DNA from: an uncultured Clostridia bacterium
Lineage (GTDB): Bacteria; Bacillota; Clostridia; TANB77; CAG-508
Assembly (NCBI GenBank): GCA_944387545.1
Contig: CALXFE010000001.1
Coordinates: forward strand, 62,001-126,000
Direction of reading: 5' to 3'
DNA length: 64,000 nucleotides
The translations under genes and the position numbers were made by a program. The notes below the pieces were generated by a model. That model ran no database searches. It saw nothing but the letters and a program-made list of their open reading frames with translations, and was not told the DNA's origin. Below, piece after piece: positions 12,196-29,407 of this stretch. Numbering within the stretch: position 1 is the first letter of the stretch; each line of letters opens with the position of its first letter.

Positions 12196-12399
12196 TTACA
12201 TTTTATCTATAAATTTCTTTAACTTACTTTTTACATCTTCTTTATTTCTTTGTACATAATTTCCTATAAAAGCACCTAAGAATAATACGACAATTGCTAA
12301 AATTAACTTATCTAATCTTGTTATTAGAATTAATATAGCTATTATAACACCTATTATTGCTCCTTTGTATAAATTCCAAAAATCCTTAAAATTGTTCAT
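12196..12399 (-). CDS. DUF2273-type small membrane protein
   Basis: The 67-residue protein has one or two membrane segments (YKGAIIGVIIAILILITRL, LILAIVVLFLGAFIGNYVQ) and a basic cytoplasmic tail. Small proteins of the DUF2273 type occur between amaP and nusB in the Asp23 operons of Bacillota, and the position here matches exactly. It probably works with AmaP at the membrane. It is co-oriented with and 27 bases downstream of amaP. Confidence 0.85.
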   Translation of the reverse strand: MNNFKDFWNLYKGAIIGVIIAILILITRLDKLILAIVVLFLGAFIGNYVQRNKEDVKSKLKKFIDKM

Positions 12400-25029: not shown

Positions 25030-25353
25030 TTAAAACCGAAAGATATCCTCTTCAGAACGGATAACGCCTTTCGGAATCTCTGTGGCATAGTCATATTGAT
25101 TCGGTGGCGTTGTGATTTCAAAATGCCGAGAGTTATATTTTTTTCCTGTTCTTTCATCTACAACAGGAACTGTATGTAAGTATCTTACAGTTGTTAGCTG
25201 ATTCTCGTTCTGATTGCTAAAGTAAAGGTAATCTGTCTTTTTAGAAAAGCCTTCTTTCCACAAAACATGATATGCTAATACCATATTTTGTGGAAATTCA
25301 GCATCGATTTTTACCCCTTTTTTAATCCGTTCCGAAATACCTTTTTCTTTCAT
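25030..25353 (-). CDS. Unrecognised 107-residue protein of atypical base composition
   Basis: The protein starts MKEKGISERIKKGVKIDAEF, continues LAYHVLWKEGFSKKTDYLYF and TVRYLHTVPVVDERTGKKYN, and ends VIRSEEDIFRF. No family is recognised; there is no membrane segment or Cys cluster. A strong AGGAGGAG lies before the ATG at 25353. The 100 bases 25031-25130 contain 43 G or C, against about 30 in neighbouring genes sampled the same way, so the gene is probably a recent arrival. It is a single-gene unit with its own hairpin terminator. Confidence 0.65.
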   Translation of the reverse strand: MKEKGISERIKKGVKIDAEFPQNMVLAYHVLWKEGFSKKTDYLYFSNQNENQLTTVRYLHTVPVVDERTGKKYNSRHFEITTPPNQYDYATEIPKGVIRSEEDIFRF

Positions 25354-26575: not shown

Positions 26576-26608
26576 AATTGATAGTTTTTATACCATTGAT
26601 ATTTTCAA

Positions 26609-26640
26609 AAGAGGGAATCTGAAACGTCAGATTCCCTCTT
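26609..26640. terminator. Hairpin terminator, copy A
   Basis: GAGGGAATCTGA (26611-26622) pairs with TCAGATTCCCTC (26627-26638) around AACG. It ends both nth (+) and the Cys-rich gene transcript A (-). A near copy lies at 28786-28817. Confidence 0.85.
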
Positions 26641-26641
26641 T

Positions 26642-27121
26642 GCCTAGTTCAATCTAGTTGTGTGTGTTAAGACTTGGTTTGCGAGTTACCTTGAATTAAA
26701 CCGCTCTGGTCTTATTCCTCTTCTTCCTTAGCCGAATCATCCTTCTAGACGTAGTTCTTCTCGAAGGAAGCTGTTTTAAATATTTCTTCCAATTTTTCTG
26801 GAAGGTAATCAGCGTACAGATATTTCTCATATTCACCCAATTCTTGCTCTTCCTCTGGGCAACAGAAGTCGTAATCACCATCAACATCTAACCTTATATC
26901 TTTCAGTTCTGCCACATGATAGCCTTCGCACCATTCACAGCAGAAAATGATCCGTATATTTTCTGGTGTTGGAATTGTCTCGTTTAAGCGTTCTAGTGAA
27001 TATTCACTCTCTAGCTCCCACCATGAATATTCTGACGGTAAGTAGTCATATAAATCTTTCATATAAACCTCCAACAAATTTTTGTCATGTAGTCTTACAC
27101 ACATAATTCAAGCCTTCTAGG
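26642..27121 (-). other. Transcript unit A with complementary 5' and 3' ends
   Basis: On the minus strand the predicted RNA starts near ACCTAGAAGG and carries GTGTGTAAG in its leader (complements at 27093-27121). Its 3' part carries CTTAACACACAC and ends with AACTAGGC just before the terminator (26642-26671). CCUAG/CUAGG and GUGUGU/ACACAC can pair and close the transcript on itself. The same layout recurs at 28819-29371. The gene inside is at 26745-27062. Confidence 0.55.
26745..27062 (-). CDS. Cys-rich acidic protein, paralog A
   Basis: The 105-residue protein has a possible metal site, C41-C42-E-W-C45 with H49, and a CC pair at 67-68 (DYDFCCPEEE), then LYADYLPEKLEEIF. Paralog B (28930-29304) shares the order I-x-F-x-C-x2-C, HV, GD-x4-CCP, AD-x2-P-x-KL and FE. 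No known family is recognised. TTGGAGGT lies before the ATG at 27062. The stop is TAG, followed in frame by KDDSAKEEEE and TAA. Bases 26841-26940 contain 44 G or C, far above neighbouring genes, which suggests acquisition. A zinc-ribbon-like role is inference. Confidence 0.7.
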   Translation of the reverse strand: MKDLYDYLPSEYSWWELESEYSLERLNETIPTPENIRIIFCCEWCEGYHVAELKDIRLDVDGDYDFCCPEEEQELGEYEKYLYADYLPEKLEEIFKTASFEKNYV

Positions 27122-27128
27122 TATATCT

Positions 27129-27157
27129 ATTATAACACCTATTATAGACGTTGTCAT
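27129..27157 (-). promoter_or_regulatory. Promoter of unit A
   Basis: ATGACA (27152-27157), a 17-base spacer and TATAAT (27129-27134) on the minus strand put the RNA start at about ACCTAG, the conserved 5' end. Confidence 0.65.
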
Positions 27158-27275
27158 CTATTGTTTAAAATCTATGTTTTCTTCTCATCTAGATAGTTTC
27201 TTTTATTTTTAAAATATTTTCATATTTTGTATATTTATTTATCTTTTTTACATACTACTATGTAGAGGTGATTTT

Positions 27276-27419
27276 TTGACAAATATTAATTGTTCACTGA
27301 ATTGTATTTATCAAAAAGATGGAAAATGTTCCTATTCTAACATTACCCCTACCATCTTTTCTACTACAAGTGAATGTGCTTACTTTGTTGATAAATCAGA
27401 AAAAGAAACTAATTCATAG
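27276..27419 (+). CDS. Small Cys-rich peptide (47 residues)
   Basis: A TTG start (27276) preceded by GAGGTGA opens a 47-codon frame: MTNINCSLNCIYQKDGKCSY then SNITPTIFSTTSECAYFVDK. The pattern C-x3-C-x7-C-x15-C-AYF resembles short Cys-containing proteins that are widespread but uncharacterised in Clostridia. The four Cys suggest a small zinc or redox knuckle. It ends at a strong terminator overlapping its stop codon. It is easily missed because of its size and TTG start. Confidence 0.65.
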   Translation: MTNINCSLNCIYQKDGKCSYSNITPTIFSTTSECAYFVDKSEKETNS

Positions 27420-27436
27420 CAATTAGTTTCTTTTTT
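27405..27436 (+). terminator. Terminator of the small Cys-rich gene
   Basis: GAAACTAATT (27405-27414) pairs with AATTAGTTTC (27421-27430), followed by six T. Confidence 0.88.
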
Positions 27437-27442
27437 ATTCAA

Positions 27443-27466
27443 TTGGGGACGTTTCTGTTTGGACAT
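27443..27466 (+). repeat. GGGGACGT/GGACA intergenic repeat, copy 1
   Basis: TTGGGGACGTTTCTG then TTTGGACAT, related to copies at 30993, 33997, 47548 and 60656. It lies just upstream of the bactofilin-like promoter. Confidence 0.65.
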
Positions 27467-27472
27467 ATTGCA

Positions 27473-27501
27473 TTGACAAAATTTGTTTTACGTTGTATAT
27501 T
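27473..27501 (+). promoter_or_regulatory. Promoter of the bactofilin-like gene
   Basis: TTGACA (27473-27478), a 17-base spacer and TATATT (27496-27501), 32 bases before the start codon. Confidence 0.75.
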
Positions 27502-27533
27502 TTTATTGGTAATAAATTTAAGAGGAGGTTATT

Positions 27534-28784
27534 ATGTTAAAAAATAAAATCAAAATTATTTCTTTAATTGTTTTACTTATGATTTCTTTATTTTCGCCTA
27601 TTGTAAATGCTGAAAATGAAACAAATGCTGATCAAGCTATTCCTATTAGTGAGAATCAAGAAACCATAACGATAAAAGATGGTGACGAGTATTTATTTGA
27701 AGAAAATATAACAATTGATTATCCTGTTGATGGAAATTTATTTATTTTTGCTAACAATGTTACAATTAATTCTCAAATAGGTGGAGATGCTTTTATTGTT
27801 GCCAACTCTATTAACATAGAAGAAAATGGCTATATCTTAAGTAATTTATTTGCTTGCTCAAACAATATAAGTGTTAAAGGGTCTGTTTATAATATTTATT
27901 CTGTAGGAGATACCTTAACGATTGATGGTTTTATTTATAGAGATATTAAAACAGTTTGTAACTCTTTAAATATAAATGGTATGATAGGAAGAAATGCTTT
28001 TGTTAATTGCTCAAATATTAACTTTAAGGAAAAACCAAATACTGAAGAAACACCTAGTATCACATCTTATGGTACTATTCAAGGAGATTTAAATTATCTT
28101 TCTGATGAAGAAAAAAATATTCCAGAAGGTGCTGTTGCAGGAGATACTCACTTTACATCTTTAAAAAATAACAACAACAATGTAAATCTTTCAGACTATA
28201 TATATTCTTTAGGTGCTGTGTTAGTTTCTGCTGTAATCTTATGGTTAATTAGTTTATGGATTGCTCCAAAAATATCACATAGTCCATTAGCACCTATGAA
28301 ATTAAAGAAAGCCTTACAAATAATAGGATTCGGAATATTGGTACCACTTGTTCTTACCTTGTTGTCTATCATTATTCTATTTATTCCTATAATTACGCAA
28401 TTTACTATATTACTATTTTGTGTATTGGCTGCATTATTCTTTGTTAGTACATTTGTTACAATTATTCATATAAATGATATGGTTTGTAATCAATTAAAAA
28501 TTACGCAAAACTTACATAAATTAGGATTTTTAATTATTACTGCATTAATATTCTGGCTATTAACATTCATTCCTTATGTAGGCACTGGTATTTCAATATT
28601 AGCAATTATATGGGGAATTGGTAGTCTTTCATATAGTGTTTTTATGAAAGAAAAATCTGATGAAAACGAAGTTAATGAGATTACAAATGTAAAAAAAGAA
28701 GATAAGCCTAATAAAACAGCAAATAAAGAAAAAGAACAAAAAAATACAGATAAGAGTAATAAATCTAAAAAAGAAGAAAAATAA
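27534..28784 (+). CDS. Bactofilin-like (polymer-forming) membrane protein
   Basis: The 416-residue protein has a signal peptide (LIVLLMISLFSPIVNA, cleavage near residue 26). Residues 45-200 form a right-handed beta-helix-like stretch of short repeats (DGNLFIFANNVTINSQIGGD, FIVANSINIEENGYI, NISVKGSVYNI, TLTIDGFIY), as in bactofilin/polymer-forming domains. About five membrane helices follow (VLVSAVILWLISLWIA, VLTLLSIIILFIPII, ILLFCVLAALFFVST, LIITALIFWLLTFIPYV), then a Lys/Glu tail. The repeat domain would lie outside the membrane. Unusually it is flanked by the two Cys-rich units. GGAGG precedes the ATG. Confidence 0.85.
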   Translation: MLKNKIKIISLIVLLMISLFSPIVNAENETNADQAIPISENQETITIKDGDEYLFEENITIDYPVDGNLFIFANNVTINSQIGGDAFIVANSINIEENGYILSNLFACSNNISVKGSVYNIYSVGDTLTIDGFIYRDIKTVCNSLNINGMIGRNAFVNCSNINFKEKPNTEETPSITSYGTIQGDLNYLSDEEKNIPEGAVAGDTHFTSLKNNNNNVNLSDYIYSLGAVLVSAVILWLISLWIAPKISHSPLAPMKLKKALQIIGFGILVPLVLTLLSIIILFIPIITQFTILLFCVLAALFFVSTFVTIIHINDMVCNQLKITQNLHKLGFLIITALIFWLLTFIPYVGTGISILAIIWGIGSLSYSVFMKEKSDENEVNEITNVKKEDKPNKTANKEKEQKNTDKSNKSKKEEK

Positions 28785-28785
28785 A

Positions 28786-28817
28786 AAGAAGGAATCTGCA
28801 TCGTCAGGTTCCTTCTT
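28786..28817. terminator. Hairpin terminator, copy B
   Basis: GAAGGAATCTG (28788-28798) pairs with CAGGTTCCTTC (28805-28815). It ends the bactofilin-like gene (+) and unit B (-), and closely resembles copy A at 26609-26640. Confidence 0.85.
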
Positions 28818-28818
28818 T

Positions 28819-29371
28819 GCCTAGTTTCATCTGGTTCGTGTGTCAAGGATGAGGACTATAGGTTACATTAAATTCGTCACTCTAATCTTAATCTGTTGCT
28901 TTACCATATGAATTGTCATCGCTGTCTTCCTATTCTTCATCAAAATCTTCATATGTTTCGAATTCCGTCAGTTCAAACATTGCTTGCAATTTGGGTGGAA
29001 TACAGTCAGCACAAAGCCCATTTTGATACTCAGCTCGCCCAGTTTTAGGACAACAAGCCCGGAAATCCCCAGCTCTATCTTTTTTCAAATTTTTATAAGA
29101 GATAACATGACATCCTGAATTATCATCGCCATTACATTCGGTACATGGAAATACGATATATACATTATTAGCATTTATTGGTTCGTCATTTATGCGTATC
29201 CGTGTAATTATACCACCTGCTATTTTCCAATAAGTCTTTTTACCTTTCTCTACATTTTTACTAAAAGATTCTTCAAGTCTCTTTGCGTATTCTTGAGCTT
29301 CCATTTTATCCTCCTACATATACAAAGAATTGTTATTGCCTCCCCACACACTTAAATTCAAACCGTCTAGG
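28819..29371 (-). other. Transcript unit B with complementary 5' and 3' ends
   Basis: The predicted minus-strand RNA starts near ACCTAGACGG with AAGTGTGTGG in the leader (complements at 29344-29371). It carries CCTTGACACAC and AAACTAGGC just before the terminator (28819-28848). The layout, spacing and end sequences match unit A. The enclosed gene is at 28930-29304. Confidence 0.55.
28930..29304 (-). CDS. Cys-rich acidic protein, paralog B
   Basis: The 124-residue protein has C54-x2-C57, C65-H66, C84-C85 and C98-x2-C101 (VFPCTECNGD, DFRACCPKTG, LCADCIPPKL), more complete than paralog A, and could bind one or two zinc ions. The N-terminal 45 residues (WKIAGGIITRIRINDEP) are not shared with A. 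TAGGAGGA lies before the ATG. It ends in TAG, followed in frame by EDSDDNSYGKATD and TAA, as in A. Bases 29001-29100 contain 41 G or C. Codon differences from A fall largely at third positions, so both are real genes. Function unknown. Confidence 0.72.
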   Translation of the reverse strand: MEAQEYAKRLEESFSKNVEKGKKTYWKIAGGIITRIRINDEPINANNVYIVFPCTECNGDDNSGCHVISYKNLKKDRAGDFRACCPKTGRAEYQNGLCADCIPPKLQAMFELTEFETYEDFDEE

Positions 29372-29378
29372 TATATAT

Positions 29379-29407
29379 AGTATATTTTACTTTATGTAGA
29401 TTGTCAA
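29379..29407 (-). promoter_or_regulatory. Promoter of unit B
   Basis: TTGACA (29402-29407), a 17-base spacer and TATACT (29379-29384) on the minus strand, with the RNA start expected at ACCTAG. Confidence 0.7.

Follow-up and report, generated by a model that had tools for sequence, protein, structure and literature searches.

Covarying pairing between the 5' and 3' ends of messages for a Cys-rich protein family beside a bactofilin-like gene in Clostridia

Results

Two similar units flank a bactofilin-like gene

We analysed a 64,000-nucleotide (nt) stretch of DNA, referred to here as the window, from a low-G+C (28.6%) Clostridia genome assembled from a metagenome. The window contains two minus-strand transcription units, W1 and W2, which encode small Cys-rich proteins and whose mRNAs have complementary 5' and 3' ends. 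They lie on either side of a plus-strand gene for a bactofilin-like membrane protein of 416 amino acids (aa), W1 in the gap between nth and this gene and W2 in the gap between this gene and rpe. As the original prediction proposed, the two units are alike. Each is arranged in the order of promoter, ACCTAG, leader with GTGTGT, GGAGG, open reading frame (ORF), ACACAC, CTAGG and terminator hairpin, with the hairpin beginning one base past CTAGG. Both promoters are near-consensus for sigma-A, and transcription is predicted to start (+1) at the A of ACCTAG (Table 1). A 53-nt stretch comprising the terminator and CCTAG is 85% identical between W1 and W2, and a 30-nt region at the start is 87% identical. 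The G+C content of the two transcripts is 38.6% and 36.5%, which is lower than the 41-44% originally given but still well above that of the window. The genes nth and the bactofilin-like gene run with their 3' ends towards the same two terminators, which therefore probably act in both directions.

The two ends of the mRNA are complementary and covary

A profile search of 211 species of one genus recovered 22 copies of the unit in 15 species, and the complementarity of the mRNA ends was compared among them. Pairing occurs in two segments, P1 (CCUAG with CUAGG) and P2 (GUGUGU and further pairs, with a 3' strand ending in ACACAC); the 3' strands are termed P1' and P2'. The extension of P2 varies between copies, and its two sides vary together (UUAGAU/AUCUAA, AAGGC/GCCUU, AAGAU/AUCUU, AAGUUC/GAACUU and GGG/CCC). 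The core of P2 also changes, being GUGCUU/AAGCAC in G048; P2 reads GUGCUUAAGGC/GCCUAAGCAC in G048 and GUGUGGG/CCCACAC in G020a, G243 and G176a. P1 changes twice, to UCUAG/CUAGA (G132a) and to CUUAG/CUAAG (G020a and G243). Over the core of P1 and P2, double changes were found at 5 of the 12 pairs and 95.1% of the cells were paired, a level reached by none of 500 shuffles, whereas registers slid by 1-3 were paired in 14.8-55%. G020a and G243 are close relatives, and the covariation cells are therefore not all independent events. Compensatory changes among homologs, whose absence had been named beforehand as a refutation, are thus present.

Because the MAFFT alignment had misaligned P2', the ends were anchored at ACCTAG/CTAGG and GTG/CAC before double changes were counted. 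Anchoring favours the structure somewhat, but a swap test is independent of both anchoring and alignment. In this test, the duplex of a copy's own 5' and 3' ends had a mean of -16.5 kcal/mol, compared with -12.3 kcal/mol with the ends of other copies, and none of 20,000 permutations was as good. The complementarity of the W1 and W2 ends also greatly exceeds the background. For the 88 ORFs in the window with a length of 80 aa or more, comparable duplexes between leader and 3' flank had a mean of -6.4 kcal/mol; two reached -14.4, and the minimum was -16.6, equal to the W1/W2 values, so that the two strongest are presumably W1 and W2 themselves. The original prediction that the ends could close the mRNA also agrees with full-length partition functions, in which P1 and P2 were predicted in 22 of the 22 copies, with the core pairs of P1 at about 0.6-1.0 and P2 of 8-12 nt. 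When the 3' strand was replaced or reversed, P2 fell from 11.3 to 7.3 or 5.6 nt. Collectively, the comparison of sequences supports complementarity between the 5' and 3' untranslated regions (UTRs) of one transcript, and it argues that the predicted end-to-end pairing of W1/W2-type mRNAs is real and evolutionarily kept.

A model of promoter and leader was searched against the 211 genomes. The 22 units scored 45-79 bits and the next matches at most 28.5 bits, mostly promoter-like fragments, indicating that other genes lack these ends. No Rfam family reached its gathering score (best 25.3 bits against 55), and the weak matches to Thr_leader and Ref66 were discarded as below threshold.

The encoded proteins form a family under purifying selection

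The W1 and W2 proteins are homologous (30% identity over 98 aa, E=2e-14) and have in common the C-x2-C, HV, CCP and AD motifs, which bears out the original description of paralogs. In an alignment of 21 family sequences, from which the frameshifted G132a copy was omitted, W15, N38, C45, H52, G65 and C71 are invariant and C48 and P89 nearly so. The conserved C-C-H-C set suggests a metal site, and the protein is probably metal-binding. The ratio of nonsynonymous to synonymous substitution rates (dN/dS) was 0.25-0.44 in close pairs of copies, and hence the ORF is a genuine, constrained protein under purifying selection. Family members are soluble proteins of 105-155 aa with a grand average of hydropathicity (GRAVY) of -0.38 to -1.16, and most are strongly acidic, with an isoelectric point (pI) of 4-5.

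The Cys-rich protein matched no family in Pfam, NCBIfam, PHROGs or PADLOC. Its predicted structure had a predicted local distance difference test score (pLDDT) of 81.7 and a predicted template modelling score (pTM) of 0.76. The best VIA structural neighbour was the zinc-binding domain of PhtA, a weak match (Z 2.5), and Foldseek returned nothing below E 1; this absence of a clear fold match does not show the fold to be new. The mRNA and its protein are a previously unclassified family, and the protein family is absent from the libraries searched.

The G132a copy (L057 3119-3557) has a frameshift near its start, which is either a pseudogene mutation or an assembly error, and its ends are fully paired, including the compensatory UCUAG/CUAGA.

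The units occupy a single locus and have left relics

No copy was found in 47 other genera of a sample of the order, leaving 1 of 48 genera positive, and viral and genome collections scanned with single proteins gave no relatives outside the genus. One collection scan returned two contigs only, which correspond to the copies of G147 and G132. Every one of the 22 copies is located either between nth and the bactofilin-like gene or between the latter and rpe, and each is antisense to the bactofilin-like gene. Both flanks are occupied in 6 genomes, two tandem copies stand in the nth gap in 1, and a single copy is present in 8; the position of a copy switches between the two gaps across genomes. 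The earlier reading must therefore be qualified: this is not a dispersed element, and all copies sit in two gaps of one chromosomal locus. The constant neighbourhood may merely reflect common descent.

In nine related genomes, the bactofilin-like gene has a close homologue but no copy of the unit is present. In a tree of the neighbouring genes, carriers and non-carriers are intermixed, and the unit is patchily distributed on the species tree. Relics of the 3' end persist in some of the nine copy-less genomes and at the vacant flank of some carriers. The intermixed tree and the relics point to an ancestor, probably with copies on either side of the bactofilin-like gene, from whose descendants copies were lost repeatedly. 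Among relics without leader and ORF, P1' or P2' is degenerate in G241, G243, G111 and G045, and the G036 relic is a truncated stub. The P2' and P1' strands of the G242 relic are intact, and this relic is presumably recent. In this small sample, the decay is as would be expected if the 3' strands were kept because of their 5' partners. The near-identical terminator hairpins are kept in species without the Cys-rich gene, probably since they also terminate the neighbouring gene. Similarity of the terminators alone was rejected as evidence for an RNA element, as the hairpin serves convergent genes and persists without this gene.

Table 1. Positions in the window of the features of W1 and W2 and of the gene between them
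Feature	Positions	Strand	Remarks
W1 promoter, ATGACA -17 nt- TATAAT	27129..27157	-	-35 at 27157, -10 ending 27129; 11/12 consensus matches; most other copies read TTGACAATTTACATAAA..TATACT
W1 predicted +1 and P1 5' strand (A-CCUAG)	27117..27122	-	+1 at 27122; covariation
W1 P2 5' strand GUGUGUAAGACU	27091..27102	-	Partner 26662-26674, -16.6 kcal/mol, best among 22 tested 3' ends
W1 leader hairpin region, 3' end = Shine-Dalgarno GGAGG (27068-27072)	27068..27094	-	
W1 ORF, 105 aa	26745..27062	-	Cys-rich acidic protein, pI 4.1
W1 P2' 3' strand AGUCUUAACACAC	26662..26674	-	
W1 P1' 3' strand CUAGG	26643..26647	-	Full-length fold, covariation
W1 terminator hairpin	26607..26641	-	Common to convergent nth
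W2 promoter, TTGACA -17 nt- TATACT	29379..29407	-	-35 at 29407, -10 ending 29379; 11/12 consensus matches
W2 predicted +1 and P1 5' strand	29367..29372	-	+1 at 29372; covariation
W2 P2 5' strand GUGUGUGGGGAGG	29339..29351	-	
W2 Shine-Dalgarno GGAGG	29310..29314	-	
W2 ORF, 124 aa	28930..29304	-	Paralogous Cys-rich protein, pI 5.0
W2 P2' 3' strand CCUCAUCCUUGACACAC	28838..28854	-	
W2 P1' 3' strand CUAGG	28820..28824	-	Full-length fold, covariation
W2 terminator hairpin	28784..28818	-	Common to convergent bactofilin-like gene
Bactofilin-like gene	27534..28784	+	Antisense to all flanking copies, outside the units; no Pfam family above cut-off

Other genes of the locus

Further genes were seen at this locus. 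In G148 (L061 6047-8061), two extra genes of 145 and 518 aa stand between the Cys-rich and the bactofilin-like gene. The rpe-side gap of G045 (L107 3239-4330) holds an unrelated 363-aa gene, by eye like SUMF1/formylglycine-generating enzymes, which uses the same terminator as the Cys-rich genes. An uncharacterised 106-aa gene lies at 25030-25350 (minus strand) of the window, between rpmB and a gene for a small membrane protein; some relatives have divergent homologues in the same place (43-67% identity) and others lack it. Given this patchy occurrence, the nth region seems to gather small orphan genes. Upstream of the bactofilin-like gene, at 27276-27419 (plus strand), there is a Cys-rich ORF of 47 aa with a TTG start and a CxxxC...C...C pattern, which is conserved in relatives both with and without the Cys-rich genes described here. 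We presume that this pattern resembles DUF1540. A fifth DNA match, at 12334-12357 of the window, was rejected as a chance stretch.

Discussion

Possible functions of the pairing

We consider it somewhat probable that the clamp prolongs the life of the message by shielding its 5' end from decay, in analogy with the hbs mRNA, and this is the reading we favour. Each unit would yield a single-gene mRNA that encodes a small, soluble, probably metal-binding protein and clamps its own ends. In P1, the 5'-terminal nucleotides would be buried through pairing with the CUAGG beside the terminator hairpin, and P2, of 8-12 nt, would lengthen the closing stem up to the leader hairpin that bears the Shine-Dalgarno sequence. 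As P1 begins no more than 1 nt from the predicted 5' end and ends one base from the terminator stem, both ends could be held in one stacked stem. A 5' end hidden in this way would presumably be less open to 5'-end-dependent decay by RNase J and RNase Y, both of which are encoded in the genome (678 and 760 bits, respectively).

A translational switch of the hok/aapA/icaR type, in which 5'-3' pairing locks the full-length mRNA and a processed form alone is translated, appears unlikely. The mRNAs of hok and aapA typically form multi-copy families with covarying end-to-end pairing (PMC6733600), and the Shine-Dalgarno sequence lies in a local hairpin of the leader, the stem of which shares a few nt with P2. 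However, P1 and P2 exclude the Shine-Dalgarno sequence, the paired 3' strands being complementary to the leader upstream of it. Its predicted accessibility was unaffected by removal of the 3' end (0.50 versus 0.49, p=0.77), as was that of the start codon (0.60 versus 0.55, not significant). Since predicted accessibility is the same without the 3' end, direct occlusion is disfavoured and an effect on stability favoured. Moreover, a consensus scan for an antisense promoter found none consistently placed among the copies, and the protein is soluble (GRAVY of -0.4 to -1.2) and not a small hydrophobic toxin. A type I toxin-antitoxin system was rejected because the Shine-Dalgarno sequence is predicted not to be sequestered by the 3' end and the protein is not hydrophobic, and icaR-type repression because there is no predicted anti-Shine-Dalgarno pairing.

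Autoregulation, with the encoded protein or another ligand binding the internal loop of the closed P1-P2 junction and controlling its own message, seems to us more doubtful still. The sequence of this loop (AUGGCUUGAA / ACUAGAUUAAA) is conserved beyond the needs of pairing, the leader is found with this ORF only, and paralogues of the same genome differ in their P2 extension. Pairing in cis was stronger than in trans for both leaders in 5 of 7 two-copy genomes, the exceptions being W2 and G146a. On the other hand, the W2 leader pairs better with the 3' end of W1 than with its own (-20.2 vs -16.4 kcal/mol); because of the two exceptions, orthogonality between the messages of one cell is incomplete. 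In addition, acidity of the kind seen in most of the proteins is unusual for RNA binding, and the structure searches gave no match with an RNA-binding protein. It is very improbable that the transcript acts mainly as a structured RNA, the protein being secondary, or that the unit is a mobile element using conserved ends: conservation is higher in the ends and terminator than in the ORF, the G+C content is above that of the host, and presence and position vary as described, but dN/dS is low, ORF-less relics often lose the pairing, no Rfam family was matched, and the 22 copies keep one orientation at one locus with none at unrelated loci, on which ground a dispersed repeat was rejected.

Several points weigh against protection of the 5' end as the function of the pairing. 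In 5 of the 12 distinct sequences, A1 of P1 has no partner. The RNA ends are predicted from sequence only, in an organism known as a metagenome-assembled genome, and the 37 C energy models take no account of ribosomes or of co-transcriptional folding; translation of the ORF may, for kinetic reasons, hold the two ends apart. Some translational coupling is possible through the overlap of the leader hairpin with P2. The intact relic of G242 fits a recent deletion, but it also fits a role of the 3' strands that is independent of their partner. Finally, a role in stability gives no reason why this protein needs a stable message.

Comparison with known mRNAs

To our knowledge, very few bacterial 5'-3' UTR pairings have been described. 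The nearest precedent is hbs of Bacillus subtilis, in which, as outlined in PMC7821165, a 14-nt pairing between 5' and 3' UTR protects against RNase Y (Braun et al. 2017). Going by that outline, a long complementary stretch joins the two UTRs of one mRNA in hbs as in the W1/W2 family, and the proposed outcome is likewise protection from RNase-initiated decay. The same text counts the functional 3' UTR of hbs among several that are not conserved between close relatives (PMC7821165), whereas the pairing described here begins at the predicted first nucleotide, shows covariation across 15 species and is linked with a protein so far uncharacterised. The aapA/IsoA and hok/Sok systems resemble the W1/W2 family in being multi-copy, with long-distance 5'-3' pairing and a conserved fold (PMC6733600), but our units gave no consistent antisense promoter in the consensus scan and have no hydrophobic toxin or predicted masking of the Shine-Dalgarno sequence by the 3' end. 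In icaR of Staphylococcus aureus, the 5' and 3' UTRs of one mRNA also pair, but there translation is blocked by pairing of the Shine-Dalgarno sequence with a UCCCC motif in the 3' UTR (PMC3868564), whereas the pairing in our units is upstream of it. RNAIII of S. aureus, an mRNA of ~500 nt, likewise has a 5'-3' interaction around its coding region (PMC7821165); it regulates other mRNAs, and no such role is indicated here. The original statement that no element of this kind had been described thus holds for the gene family and fails for the general idea. The W1/W2 pairing is a new variant of a known principle, in a gene family that is itself newly described.

We tentatively suggest, while rating it below even chances, that these units represent a class of self-clamped mRNAs, in which the first nucleotides and the terminator base would be co-selected as one closing stem. 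Preserved across many species, this stem would serve as a built-in module for stability (or switching) and would belong exclusively to one new protein family that probably binds zinc. In the 22 natural copies one pairing covaries, with paralogues of the same cell and natural relics as controls. The family thereby offers a ready-made collection of naturally occurring compensatory mutants for asking whether closure of the ends governs the decay or the translation of bacterial mRNA.

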